NCBI RefSeq assembly: GCF_030413595.1
Contig: NZ_CP129238.1
Coordinates: 2,108,001 to 2,172,000 of the forward strand
Reading direction: 5' to 3'
DNA length: 64,000 nucleotides
Origin: Planococcus liqunii
Lineage (GTDB): Bacteria; Bacillota; Bacilli; Bacillales_A; Planococcaceae
Part shown: in pieces, positions 42,110 to 46,412 of the stretch
Layout: each line of letters begins with the position of its first letter
How positions within the stretch are numbered: position 1 is the stretch's first letter
Notes under the pieces: generated by a model
Databases searched by the model: none
The model's input: the letters and a program-made list of their open reading frames with translations, nothing else
What the model was told of the DNA's origin: nothing
Made by a program: the position numbers and the translations under genes

Positions 42110-43540
42110 ATGAAAAAAATCGGGATGGTTTTATTATACTTCTTTATTTTGTGCTTATCGGGATACTTCTATTCCGCTCATCTCCATGATACCACTGCAG
42201 AAGTGCACCAGCGGCTCTTGCCCATCAAAATCAAAACGGTAAAACCAGGGACAGACGAAATGGAACTGCAGCAGCTTGTGGAAAATGCAAACCAAAAAGG
42301 AGACATTCTTACCATTGCCGGCATGCAGCACAGCCAAGGCGGGCAGACGGTGTATCCCGATGGCATCATGGTCGATATGAAGCCGTACAATCAAATACTC
42401 GAAGTCAATGAAGACGCCAAGACAGTAACCGTTCAAAGTGGAGCCACATGGGCGGATATTCAGGAAGCGGTCAATCCGTATGGCCTGTCGCTGAAAGTCA
42501 GCCAGTCGCAAAACATTTTTACCGTCGGCGGCTCCTTGAGCGTCAATGCCCATGGCCTGGACATCCGCCACGGCGGCTTGTCGGATACGGTATTGTCGAT
42601 GCGCGTTCTGACTGCCGACGGAGAGATCCGGAACTTGAGCCCGACAGAAAATAAAGAGCTGTTTTATGCAGTGATTAGCGGATATGGCTTGTTTGGCATC
42701 ATTATGGATGTGACTTTAAAGCTTACCGAAGACGAGCTGTATGTCACGGAAACCCAAAGCATGGATTTCCGGGATTATCCGGCATATTTCAAAGAACAAG
42801 TGAAAGGGAATCCGGAAGCCAAAATGCATTTGGCCCGGCTTTCCATTGCACCGGAATCGCTGCTGGAAGAAATGTATGCCATCACGTATGAGACGGCTCC
42901 GGACCAAAGCAAGCTTCCTGAGCACAACCAGTTGAAAACGGAAAACCTCGTGGCGGTGCCGAAGTTTTTCCTCGGACTGTCACGCATCAATGATGCCGGA
43001 AAAGAAACATTTTGGAAGACCCAGAAAACGTATACGGAAGGGATAGACGGGAAGCACGTTTCAAGAAACAACGTCATGCGATCAGACTCGGAATTCATGG
43101 AATACGACAATAGCCGGAAAACGGAAGTGCTTCAGGAATATTTCGTTCCCGTCGATGAATTTGAATCGTATATTCCCGAACTGAAAGCCATTTTGGAAGC
43201 CCATCCTGATTTCAACCTATTGAATGTCACCGTCCGCTACGTCGGCAAAAATGACAATGCCGTTTTGTCGTATGCCAAAGAAGATATGTTTTCTTTGGTG
43301 CTGCTCATCAACCAAGGAACCGACCCGGAAAGTGTGGCAGATACTCGGGAAATCGTGCAGGAAATGATTGATGTAACACTCGCCCATCGCGGCAGTTATT
43401 ATTTGCCTTATTTCGGCTATCCGACCAAAGCGCAAATGCAGAAAGCGTATCCGAGAACCGATGAATTCTTCGAGCTGAAAGACCGCTACGATCCGGACCA
43501 CCGTTTCAAAAATCTGTTTTATGAGGAGTATCGGCCATGA
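42110..43540 (+). CDS. Membrane-anchored FAD-binding oxidoreductase
   Basis: 476 residues. An N-terminal membrane segment (about 3-22) is followed by a PCMH/FAD_binding_4 domain (TVQSGATWADIQEAVNPYGL, VGGSLSVNAHGLDIRHGGL) and a C-terminal substrate domain like that of sugar-lactone oxidases (ending DRYDPDHRFKNLFYEEY). The His that covalently binds FAD in some relatives cannot be confirmed. It probably oxidises a sugar or lactone at the membrane. The MFS gene overlaps its stop by 4 bases, and an XRE gene is divergent. Confidence 0.88.
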   Translation: MKKIGMVLLYFFILCLSGYFYSAHLHDTTAEVHQRLLPIKIKTVKPGTDEMELQQLVENANQKGDILTIAGMQHSQGGQTVYPDGIMVDMKPYNQILEVNEDAKTVTVQSGATWADIQEAVNPYGLSLKVSQSQNIFTVGGSLSVNAHGLDIRHGGLSDTVLSMRVLTADGEIRNLSPTENKELFYAVISGYGLFGIIMDVTLKLTEDELYVTETQSMDFRDYPAYFKEQVKGNPEAKMHLARLSIAPESLLEEMYAITYETAPDQSKLPEHNQLKTENLVAVPKFFLGLSRINDAGKETFWKTQKTYTEGIDGKHVSRNNVMRSDSEFMEYDNSRKTEVLQEYFVPVDEFESYIPELKAILEAHPDFNLLNVTVRYVGKNDNAVLSYAKEDMFSLVLLINQGTDPESVADTREIVQEMIDVTLAHRGSYYLPYFGYPTKAQMQKAYPRTDEFFELKDRYDPDHRFKNLFYEEYRP

Positions 43541-44085
43541 ATTATAAACGTTTCATCTATTATCAAGGCACCATCGGCATGGCGTCCAGCATGATTTTCC
43601 CGTTTTATATTCTGCTAATCAAAAATGTCGGAAACAGCTACGCACAATTCGGCTGGGCCTATGGGCTGTTTGCGCTGACAGCGGCGCTGTGCTATCCGCT
43701 GATTGGGAAATACGCAGACCGCGTCGGCGACAAGACTTTGTTAAATATCTATTCCTGGGGAATGGCAATCCTTCTCCTTTGTTTCCCTTTGGCCACTGAA
43801 GTTTATCATGTCTACATCCTGCAGGTGCTGATGGGCGTACTTGGGGCAGTCCAAAAAAACTCAGAAAAAACCGTACTGGCGCGCTATGTAACAAAAGAAT
43901 TGGCCGGCACCCAAATCGGACGCTATCATGTATGGACGTCCATTGCGGCAGCCATTGCAGTGATTGGCACCGGATACCTCGTCGACTTCCTGACGATTGC
44001 CACGATTTTTTACATTGCTTCTCTTGTCTACGCCTGGAGTGGGATACAGTTAATGAAATTGAAGGAAACTGGAGCGGAAATTTGA
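43537..44085 (+). CDS. Half-size MFS transporter
   Basis: 182 residues with about six helices, half of a normal 12-helix MFS protein. The MFS signature between helices 2 and 3 is present (GKYADRVGDK, matching G-x3-D-R-x-G-x-(K/R)). The frame ends naturally after helix 6 and no second half follows, because the next 240 bp contain only repeats and a terminator. It overlaps the FAD oxidase gene by 4 bases (ATGA). It might dimerise, or be a fossil half. Confidence 0.85.
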   Translation: MNYKRFIYYQGTIGMASSMIFPFYILLIKNVGNSYAQFGWAYGLFALTAALCYPLIGKYADRVGDKTLLNIYSWGMAILLLCFPLATEVYHVYILQVLMGVLGAVQKNSEKTVLARYVTKELAGTQIGRYHVWTSIAAAIAVIGTGYLVDFLTIATIFYIASLVYAWSGIQLMKLKETGAEI

Positions 44086-44126: not shown

Positions 44127-44223
44127 GAAATACGACCAGAAGTTTCTGAAATACGACCAGCAGTCGCAAATTTACGACCAGATGTCACCGAAATACGATC
44201 AGTAACGCCGAAAATACGATTCA
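44127..44223. repeat. 21-bp tandem repeat, about five copies
   Basis: TACGACCAG or a variant recurs at 44131, 44152, 44173, 44194 and 44215, exactly every 21 bases, within the longer unit GAAATACGACCAG plus 8 variable bases. Because 21 is a multiple of three, the array reads as seven-residue repeats (EIRPEVS, EIRPAVA, NLRPDVT) in one frame. There is no start or ribosome binding site for that frame, so I take it as an intergenic minisatellite. Confidence 0.85.
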
Positions 44224-44262
44224 TAAGCGAAAATTGGCTAATAATAAGAAGTGCCGGCATAT

Positions 44263-44301
44263 TAAAAAAGGAGGAACTTGCAGCCAAGTCCCTCCTTTTT
44301 T
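44263..44301. terminator. Bidirectional terminator
   Basis: AAAAAAGGAGG-AACTTG pairs with CAAGT-CCTCCTTTTTT around a 4-base loop. It lies between the convergent MFS and signal-peptidase-like genes. Confidence 0.85.
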
Positions 44302-44324
44302 AACAGTGGTTCGAATCCACTAGC

Positions 44325-45125
44325 TCATTTTACATACCCCATTACTTCTCCTTCAATTTCAGAAAGCAGAAGCGTTTCCTGGCTGCCTCTAAACCAATCA
44401 TCGCCCGCGACAAACACTTCATCTTCAGCCAGTCGGAATGCAGGTGTCGTCTGTGAAAAGATTTCTTTCATCGATCCGACATTCTGTTCAGCCCCTTGCG
44501 CTTTCAGGGCGGCGACGTATTCCTCAAGAGACCCGATGCCCATCCGATTTGCCTTGCCATAAAAAGTATCCAGCCGCTGGCCATCGACATAGACTTGCCC
44601 TTCCTTGATTTCGATTGTTTCCCCCGGAAGCCCGATTATTCGGGAGACGGTCTTCTTTTTCCCATCAAATGCTTCCATTTTATAGACAATCACATCTCCT
44701 CTGGAAACGGATTTGTCTTCATAAGCTTGCGGATCAATCAATAAAGGATAAACAGTGTATTCATGATTCCCCCGGTCCATCGCATCATACTTAAAGTTCA
44801 GGATTTCCATCGGCGTATCGTATTCCGTAAAAAAAGCAATTTCTGTCTCCGTGCCGAGATCCGTCAGGACAGCAGTTTCCGGCTGGCCGAAATTTGTATT
44901 TTGCGGTTCAGGCTCACCTTTATTCAAATTCAGCACTAAAAATACGCTGATAGCTGACAGGAGAAGCACAAAGACGGCGACGTATTTAATGGGGCTCTTT
45001 CTTTTAGAAGAAGCTTCTACCTGATTAACATTTTTGATTTCCATTCTTATCTTTTGTTTCAAGGACTCCTTGAACCGGGGATTGCTTCCGATAAACGCAT
45101 CCATCTCTCGCTTAAGCTTGTTCAT
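44325..45125 (-). CDS. Probable anti-sigma factor with catalytically dead signal-peptidase-I fold
   Basis: 266 residues. The cytoplasmic N-terminus (about 1-48) is charged and helical (MDAFIGSNPRFKESLKQKIR); a membrane helix follows (about 50-68), then an extracytoplasmic domain with the S26 layout. Box D reads VSRIIGLPGETIEI, where the catalytic Lys (VKR in SipS) is Ser. Box B reads YDAMDRGN, where the catalytic Ser (GDSMxPT) is Ala. Box E is retained as VAGDDWFRGSQET. The fold is kept but the Ser-Lys dyad is gone. The start follows AGGAGGGG by 7 bases and lies 13 bases after the sigma factor gene. Regulation of that sigma factor is inferred from position and topology. Confidence 0.8.
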   Translation of the reverse strand: MNKLKREMDAFIGSNPRFKESLKQKIRMEIKNVNQVEASSKRKSPIKYVAVFVLLLSAISVFLVLNLNKGEPEPQNTNFGQPETAVLTDLGTETEIAFFTEYDTPMEILNFKYDAMDRGNHEYTVYPLLIDPQAYEDKSVSRGDVIVYKMEAFDGKKKTVSRIIGLPGETIEIKEGQVYVDGQRLDTFYGKANRMGIGSLEEYVAALKAQGAEQNVGSMKEIFSQTTPAFRLAEDEVFVAGDDWFRGSQETLLLSEIEGEVMGYVK

Positions 45126-45138
45126 CCTGAAACCCCTC

Positions 45139-45652
45139 CTATTCGCTTGCATCGACTTGGTCTTTCAACAGCTTCTTCGCTCTTCTCAACCTCGTTTTGA
45201 CTGTGTTCTCCGGGCAGTTCAGCAACCGGCTGATTTCTTTCGTCGCGAATTCCTGGTAATAGTATAGAAGGACGGCTTCCCGGTATTTAATTGGAAGCCC
45301 CAATACTTTTCTTGTTAAATTGGCTTGTTCCGCTCGGACTTCCACATTTTCTTCATGAGACTTTCTTCCTGACAGCATCCGTGAATAAAGCCCGCTTATT
45401 TTTCCAGCTTCTCAAATGGTCATGGCATTTATTGATGGTTATTTTGGAAAGGTACGTTCTCAGGGAGGATCGCTTATCAAACTGATGGGACTTTTGATAA
45501 TAAGATAGGAAGACTTCCTGCACAATGTCCTCGGCAGCCTGCCAATCCTTGACGTAAAAATAAGCCAGGCGAATCAATTCTTCGCCGCAGTTGTCCATAA
45601 TCTTTTCCATCTGCTCATCGCTTATTTCAGATTCGCGTATGTCTCTAGCCAC
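45139..45652 (-). pseudogene. ECF-type sigma factor, split by a frameshift
   Basis: Two overlapping frames on the minus strand. 45353-45652 encodes region 2 (99 residues, with AYFYVKDWQAAEDIVQEVFL); 45139-45378 encodes region 4 (79 residues, with LGLPIKYREAVLLYYYQEFA and LLNCPENTVKTRLRRAKKLL). They are offset by one base and overlap between 45353 and about 45410. Loss of one A from AAAAA near 45404, or of the G in AAAGTCTC near 45360, would fuse them into a normal ~170-residue sigma. A two-subunit sigma like SigO/RsoA is conceivable, but the second frame lacks a ribosome binding site. GTG start with GGGGAGG upstream. Confidence 0.8.
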
Positions 45653-45683: not shown

Positions 45684-45712
45684 TAGACGTAAGATTTTTA
45701 GGAATAGTTTCA
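45684..45712 (-). promoter_or_regulatory. ECF-sigma promoter (autoregulatory)
   Basis: On the minus strand TGAAAC, 17 bases, CGTCTA, located 32-60 bases upstream of the sigma factor start. It matches the general ECF consensus TGAAAC-N16/17-CGTC, so the sigma factor probably activates its own operon. Confidence 0.75.
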
Positions 45713-46079: not shown

Positions 46080-46412
46080 ATGGCTCATGATCAGCATCAG
46101 GAACTCATCCAAATTTTGCACGAGTGCGTTGCGGCGTGCAACCACTGTTTTGACGCTTGCCTGCAGGAGGAAGACGTGAAAATGATGGTTCAGTGCATCC
46201 GCTTGGACCGGGAATGTGCAGAGATCTGCGCCTTTTTGGAACAGACAATTTCCAGAAATTCACCGTTTGTAACGGAACTGGCCAGAGTATGCGCTGCAAT
46301 TTGTGATGCATGCGGCGACGAATGTGCGAAGCACGCAGACCACCACGACCATTGCAAACAGTGTGCGGAGGCTTGCCGCAAATGTGCAGAAGCTTGCCGC
46401 AATATCGCGTAG
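46080..46412 (+). CDS. Cys-rich four-helix copper-binding protein (Csp-like)
   Basis: 110 residues, very rich in Cys and His, arranged at helical spacing (HECVAACNHCFDACLQEE, then CIRLDRECAEICAF, CAAICDACGDECAKHADHH, CKQCAEACRKCAEACR). This is the DUF326/Csp copper-storage pattern, where a four-helix bundle is lined with Cys that bind Cu(I). It has no signal peptide, so it is a cytosolic Csp3-type store. AATGGAGG precedes the ATG. A strong terminator follows. Confidence 0.93.
   Translation: MAHDQHQELIQILHECVAACNHCFDACLQEEDVKMMVQCIRLDRECAEICAFLEQTISRNSPFVTELARVCAAICDACGDECAKHADHHDHCKQCAEACRKCAEACRNIA

Follow-up and report, generated by a model that had tools for sequence, protein, structure and literature searches.

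Known systems and the locus studied

Type I signal peptidases such as SpsB and SipS (TIGR02227, PF10502) carry a catalytic Ser-Lys pair and an MxPT motif. A dead form of the same fold is SipA of Streptococcus pyogenes (PDB 4n31) which, in the available part of its report, has lost the dyad, keeps the peptide cleft, shows no detectable peptidase activity and serves pilus assembly, with no sigma linkage mentioned there (PMC4049620). The RsiV and RsiP proteins of Bacillus, partners of extracytoplasmic function (ECF) sigma factors, consist of a cytoplasmic part, one membrane helix and an outward part, and two papers describe their release, in which signal peptidase makes the site-1 cut and RasP acts next (PMC4183432, PMC8844934). 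Last, the RsgI anti-sigma factors of Clostridium thermocellum carry outward sensors of enzyme origin, among them a protease-like S1C domain (PMC12203970). Here, we analyze a minus-strand gene at 44325..45125 of a 64,000-nucleotide stretch of Planococcus liqunii (contig NZ_CP129238.1, positions 2,108,001 to 2,172,000; the window), together with its relatives.

We consider it probable that the family includes single-pass membrane anti-sigma factors of ECF sigma factors, with a catalytically dead type I signal peptidase domain as the extracellular sensor. The fold, the family-wide dyad loss, the architecture, the sigma linkage, the promoter motif, the domain swap and the break in the sigma gene are read here from sequence. 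The family has a dead signal peptidase fold like that of SipA and is sigma linked, which is not reported for the latter in the part of the source available. It has the layout of RsiV and RsiP; in those systems, signal peptidase is the cutting enzyme, whereas here its dead relative forms the outward domain. As in RsgI, an enzyme-derived sensor would sit on an anti-sigma stalk, although the SigI partners, the polysaccharide ligands and the folds differ. As RsgI stalks carry enzyme-derived and even protease-like sensors, a dead S26 sensor would vary an already known principle. Compared to type I signal peptidases, every readable copy examined here lacks the Ser-Lys pair, MDRGN typically stands in place of MxPT, and the sigma-linked form adds a long charged N-terminal tail. 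We found no description of sigma-linked dead signal peptidases among the open-licence papers listed in our searches.

Fold and catalytic sites of the window protein

The open reading frame (ORF), whose ATG at 45125 is closely preceded by AGGAGGGG, encodes a product of 266 amino acids. A preliminary description of this DNA had proposed a signal peptidase I fold, which was recovered by the PF10502 profile (E value of 4.8e-15), by an AlphaFold2 model (predicted local distance difference test score, pLDDT, of 87) and by a Foldseek comparison of residues 99-266, in which the closest solved folds among the best 1000 chains were SpsB and the dead homolog SipA (PDB 4n31). The score against TIGR02227 "signal peptidase I" was 47.0 bits, exactly at the model cut-off of 47, which fits the name "signal peptidase" that the protein bears in the database.

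The whole gene can be described as coding for an anti-sigma-like membrane protein with a pseudo-signal-peptidase domain, all of its parts being on the minus strand. Residues 1-45 (44991..45125) form a cytoplasmic tail with a net charge of +7 and model helices at 3-12 and 20-38, putatively the sigma-binding domain. The model places a single membrane helix at residues 46-67 (44925..44990), and the dead S26 domain spans residues 89-266 (44328..44861). Judged by model and charge, this is the arrangement of cytoplasmic N-domain, one membrane helix and outward sensor that had been suggested from the letters. Tail and helix are 41% identical over 68 residues to those of a second sigma-linked protein of the same genome.

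Both catalytic residues are absent, as first proposed. The Ser column is occupied by Ala115 (codon 44781..44783, in KYDAMDRGN), the profile alignment to SpsB 4wvh pairing yDaMDRG with GESMDPT, while the Lys column is occupied by Ser161 (codon 44643..44645, in TVSRIIG), since the residue preceding R162 pairs with the Lys of KRVIG in SpsB 4wvh and the same placement is seen on alignment with 4nv4 of B. anthracis. Of the features that define an active type I signal peptidase, the protein therefore has the S26 fold and lacks both the catalytic Ser and the catalytic Lys. Box E (GDDWFRGSQET, residues 241-251, 44373..44405) is kept, as had been noted, and contains the conserved D242, W244 and R246.

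Loss of the Ser-Lys pair across the family

The window protein has 204 homologs at E values of ≤1e-3. The collection drew on the best 120 of these and on 120 of the 1718 proteins in a second listing, beyond which active enzymes may be included. The resulting 206 rows (listed proteins, fetched loci and the window, whose own protein is present twice) hold 196 distinct sequences, 190 of them readable at both catalytic sites. A weak match in the search for relatives, L008, was rejected, as it reads as a solute-binding protein.

An intact Ser-Lys pair, sought as the observation that would speak against a dead domain, was found in none of the 200 readable copies among these 206, nor in any of the 84 readable copies among the 85 of a separate locus census. 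Ser without Lys occurred in 41 of the 200, and Lys was kept in only 5, always with Asp at the Ser site. Whether the Ala and Ser of the window protein are conserved had been raised as a question; they are not, and both columns vary (in the 206-row set, A91 S42 N41 T12 G7 D7 at the Ser site and G74 S66 A38 T11 K5 L4 at the Lys site), while M116, G119, R162, D242 and W244 are identical in all 200 readable rows and D117 (198), R142 (198), R246 (198), R118 (190) and N120 (186) are nearly so. The census counts, out of 85, were M116 (84), R162 (85), D242 (85), W244 (84) and R246 (76), with 19 of the copies unmatched by a strict MDRG[NDHK] pattern. By alignment, then, dyad loss is a family trait, with the catalytic columns varying inside a frame that is kept.

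The near invariance of R142, R162, D242 and W244 in the old active-site boxes could also be explained if the protein were an enzyme with a different catalytic center, built from conserved Asp, Arg and Trp. We regard this as very improbable, as SipA, with the same loss, reportedly has no detectable peptidase activity (PMC4049620), and in a 69-row alignment no invariant or nearly invariant column is a Ser or a Cys, the nearly invariant ones including Thr92 and Thr187.

Distribution, architecture and sigma linkage

Relatives were present in at least 72 of the 261 genomes of the order (13 of 19 genera), 20 of 398 genomes drawn from the class (9 of 145 genera) and 1 of 398 drawn from the phylum, namely, the window's own genome; these are lower bounds, with 6 to 9 first-look candidates scored per genome. 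Of the 85 census copies, 80 came from the search of the order and 5 from that of the class. Left out were fragments (L114, L121, L128, L132 and L133) and pieces covering <110 profile positions (L134, L135 and a 50-amino-acid piece of L086); L099 and L100 were unused because of internal stops, and L136, which also has stops, was kept. A sigma gene was counted as adjacent when a same-strand profile match ended no more than 300 bp ahead of the start of the open frame and no more than 400 bp past it, the upstream DNA being short for L120 (403 bp) and L142 (260 bp). Reading of the sequences led us to reclassify L122 and L124, which have a Cys by chance, and L082, whose upstream start is unlikely.

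Tail and membrane helix are present in 54 of the 85 copies, and a codirected ECF sigma gene lies directly upstream in 53 of them, the window included, where the sigma gene is present but broken; L085, the only tail-bearing copy with no adjoining sigma gene, has a shortened tail. None of the 31 tail-less copies (25 with a lipobox pattern and 6 with bare anchors) has such a neighbor, an association with a Fisher P value of 2e-22, uncorrected for kinship. The best models of the sigma partners were PRK09415 for most of those tested and SigX for L061, all below curated cut-offs. The predicted co-occurrence with sigma factors in related genomes is thus found, and anti-sigma use would apply to the tail-bearing copies, while the domain also occurs in lipoproteins with no adjoining sigma gene.

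This distribution bears on whether the protein could be an assembly helper or chaperone like SipA, whose expression is controlled by the sigma neighbor but which is not bound to the sigma factor. The five scanned window neighbors are of kinds other than pilin or sortase, no search having been aimed at either. Given that the N-terminal tail tracks the sigma gene (53/54 against 0/31) and that, elsewhere in this genome, the same tail and helix bear an unrelated sensor at a different sigma locus, we consider a helper role unlikely.

For the copies without a sigma gene (with L138 outside this coverage), neighbors showed only same-genus synteny (L070, L116 and L117) and an ABC-transporter-like group (L079, L082 and L140). 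In the first three, a bare-anchor dead S26 gene occupies a conserved place between genes that read as adenine phosphoribosyltransferase-like and RelA/SpoT-like. A set of longer proteins of ~380 to 530 amino acids (L073, L074, L093, L094, L123 to L127 and L129) has additional outward sequence on the N-terminal side of the dead S26 domain and, in most cases, on its C-terminal side too; the extra parts of L073, the one scanned, matched no Pfam family.

Domain exchange

In the domain tree, the sigma label requires 8 changes, and an approximately unbiased (AU) test on a reduced set of 80 rows rejects a single clade of sigma-linked copies (P = 7.6e-125), which suggests that sigma linkage arose more than once. 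The clearest exchange is visible at L090, which is 92% identical to L035 over the first 72 residues and 35% in the domain, the latter being 75 to 76% identical to those of the lipoproteins L084 and L086; on these identities, an anti-sigma stalk has visibly swapped its sensor for that of a lipoprotein. Other combinations are P0123, with a DUF4871-like domain (21 bits; Pfam cut-off, 25) and an S26 domain on one stalk, P0122, with two S26 domains, and L138 (G428:C1:1926587-1933984), where a sigma gene, an anti-sigma gene with a weak S26 copy minus the MDRGN part, and a free domain are consecutive. From these comparisons, the dead S26 domain is also used as a free lipoprotein and has been exchanged between anti-sigma stalk and lipoprotein settings.

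Promoter, terminator and paralogous operon

Upstream of the sigma gene, a motif scan identified an ECF-type promoter-like site, TGAAAC-N17-CGTC (45686..45712, minus strand), the single match in the window against 0.19 expected. The core alone (TGAAAC-N16/17-CGTC) is uninformative in the own genome, with 18 sites versus 23 in the reversed control; it was found upstream of 14, not all, of the scanned sigma ORFs. A longer motif with ≤2 mismatches gave 17 sites in 46 genomes of the genus, all of them ~570 to 600 bp before the start of a tail-family anti-sigma gene, i.e., before its sigma gene. Twelve of these are S26 pairs and five are pairs whose anti-sigma factor matches only in the tail; the two of the five that were read (L091 and L083) share a different sensor, with 15 bits to DUF4871 in L091 (cut-off, 25). 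Allowing ≤3 mismatches increased the count to 29 sites (6 in the reversed control), and of the 12 sites at 3 mismatches, the two examined (G008 and G009) are tail-family sigma operons. We infer from this motif that the sigma/anti-sigma operon may be autoregulated.

Behind the anti-sigma stop codon, a hairpin with A/U flanks (44260..44305, minus strand; fold of -29.3 kcal/mol, z score of -8.2, none of 200 shuffles equally stable) is a probable terminator, although it is absent from the list of the consensus terminator scan, so the window unit looks like sigma plus anti-sigma only. As 16 loci have a codirected ORF within 120 bp, we claim a two-gene unit for the window alone; downstream neighbors of the sigma-linked copies formed clusters of only 3 to 5 related loci. 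The gap after the operon (44127-44219) also contains a direct repeat in four copies, spaced 21 bp, around ATACGACCAG.

The same genome holds an intact paralogous ECF pair (G000:C1:1826644-1828200; L091:4400-5957), whose anti-sigma factor shares tail and membrane helix with the window protein and has a weakly DUF4871-like sensor and the same promoter type. With an intact pair of related tail and equal promoter type, cross-talk would be possible, and a paralogous sigma factor may still drive production of the window anti-sigma factor from its intact promoter.

The broken sigma gene of the window

The gene had been placed directly downstream of an ECF sigma factor gene, which is correct for position and misses that this sigma gene is no longer intact. 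It is split into two minus-strand ORFs in different frames, a 5' half with region 2 that ends early (45353..45652; PF04542, 2.8e-16; PRK09415 "sigma C," 1.2e-26) and a 3' half with region 4 (45139..45378; PF08281, 1.5e-16; PRK09415, 3.8e-22). A MAFFT alignment of four loci places between them, with its junction at 45374..45375, a 14-bp deletion relative to L001, L002 and L003, whose sigma genes are open. A sequencing error is an unlikely source of the difference, and reinitiation may occur at the internal ATG at 45378. SigO/RsoA is a two-part sigma factor. A purposeful split of this kind, or a programmed frameshift, was set aside here, as the frames of the relatives are open and the difference is the 14-bp deletion.

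With its sigma gene frameshifted, the window copy is probably an orphan. Whether it is in addition a relic on the way out, jobless since the sigma gene broke, seems to us evenly balanced, and either outcome would be compatible with anti-sigma function at the family level. The deletion itself favors a relic, as do four further loci (L040, L074, L088 and L089) in which a damaged sigma gene stands beside an open anti-sigma frame, L038 being the reverse case. On the other side, the window frame is open and complete, and promoter motif and terminator hairpin are retained. The ratio of nonsynonymous to synonymous substitution rates (dN/dS) of the anti-sigma gene, 0.24 against L001 and 0.28 against L002, is no higher than the 0.31 between L001 and L002, so selection does not look relaxed, but a break of recent date would leave no trace in this ratio. 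The dN/dS values of the two sigma halves were uninformative. At L074 (G157), the sigma gene has shrunk to its region 4 end, and a frame that reads as ABC-F-like enters its 5' part.

Other neighbors in the window

On the plus strand, 43537-44085 codes for a 182-amino-acid, half-size major facilitator superfamily protein (PF07690, positions 8-166 of 347), which has the same length in L001 and L002 and is therefore not a fresh truncation. Also on the plus strand, 46080-46412 codes for a Cys-rich DUF326 protein of 110 amino acids, which we take to be of the copper-storage type.

Proposed mechanism and its weighing

For the intact pairs, we propose sigma binding, ligand binding and proteolytic release in the following form. 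The short charged N-terminal tail would hold the ECF sigma factor encoded just upstream, while the outward domain, which would not cut, would bind a partner at the former substrate cleft or close to it. The motifs around the cleft (typically DxMDRGN, then R142-G-D, R162 and D242-x-W244) would be kept for this, and the two catalytic positions would be free to vary. Partner binding would alter the presentation of the stalk to a site-1 protease, RasP would then cut within the membrane and free the sigma factor, and the latter would transcribe its own operon, among others, from TGAAAC-N17-CGTC. The own genome encodes RasP and PrsW homologs and two signal peptidases with the dyad.

Several observations weigh against this proposal. 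By eye, no conserved AXA-type motif for a site-1 cut is seen behind the membrane helix in 62 proteins. The MDRGN motif is looser in the 85-copy census (D117 in 75, R118 in 73 and N120 in 64), just 2 to 3 independent tail/sigma contrasts lie on well-supported (starred) branches of the tree, and the lipoprotein copies have no telling neighbors. The own genome has no longer-motif sites beyond the two sigma operons, which leaves no regulon from which a signal could be read. The sigma gene is broken in the window and at the four loci named above, out of 53 that are sigma linked, and there the role may have ended.

The first cut could also be made by signal peptidase, as it is in RsiV and RsiP (PMC4183432, PMC8844934), if the dead domain were a bait that binds the active enzyme and the stalk were cut at site 1 whenever that enzyme is idle or has been displaced. 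As no conserved cleavage motif is visible behind the helix, we judge such a bait quite improbable.

As for the ligand of a dead sensor domain, signal peptides, preproteins or signal peptidase inhibitors, as suggested in the preliminary description, are a guess. A more specific form would make the dead signal peptidase a gauge of protein export, competing with the active peptidases for signal peptides or another ligand that both bind and reporting a pile-up of substrate through the ECF sigma factor, with free lipoprotein copies titrating the ligand and so tuning the gauge. A gauge of this type would leave traces like the gene row at L138 and the transfer of a lipoprotein's domain to the stalk of an anti-sigma factor; even so, we hold this version to be doubtful.

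Implications

Dozens of the listed homologs are named "signal peptidase I" or "S26 family signal peptidase," and no readable copy examined has the Ser-Lys pair; such misnamed copies should be left out of any count of export enzymes. If the sensor role of the domain is true, it would represent a new sensor module of ECF signaling that derives from an essential enzyme and is also used by lipoproteins; mutation of its conserved motifs would then make the question of the ligand accessible.
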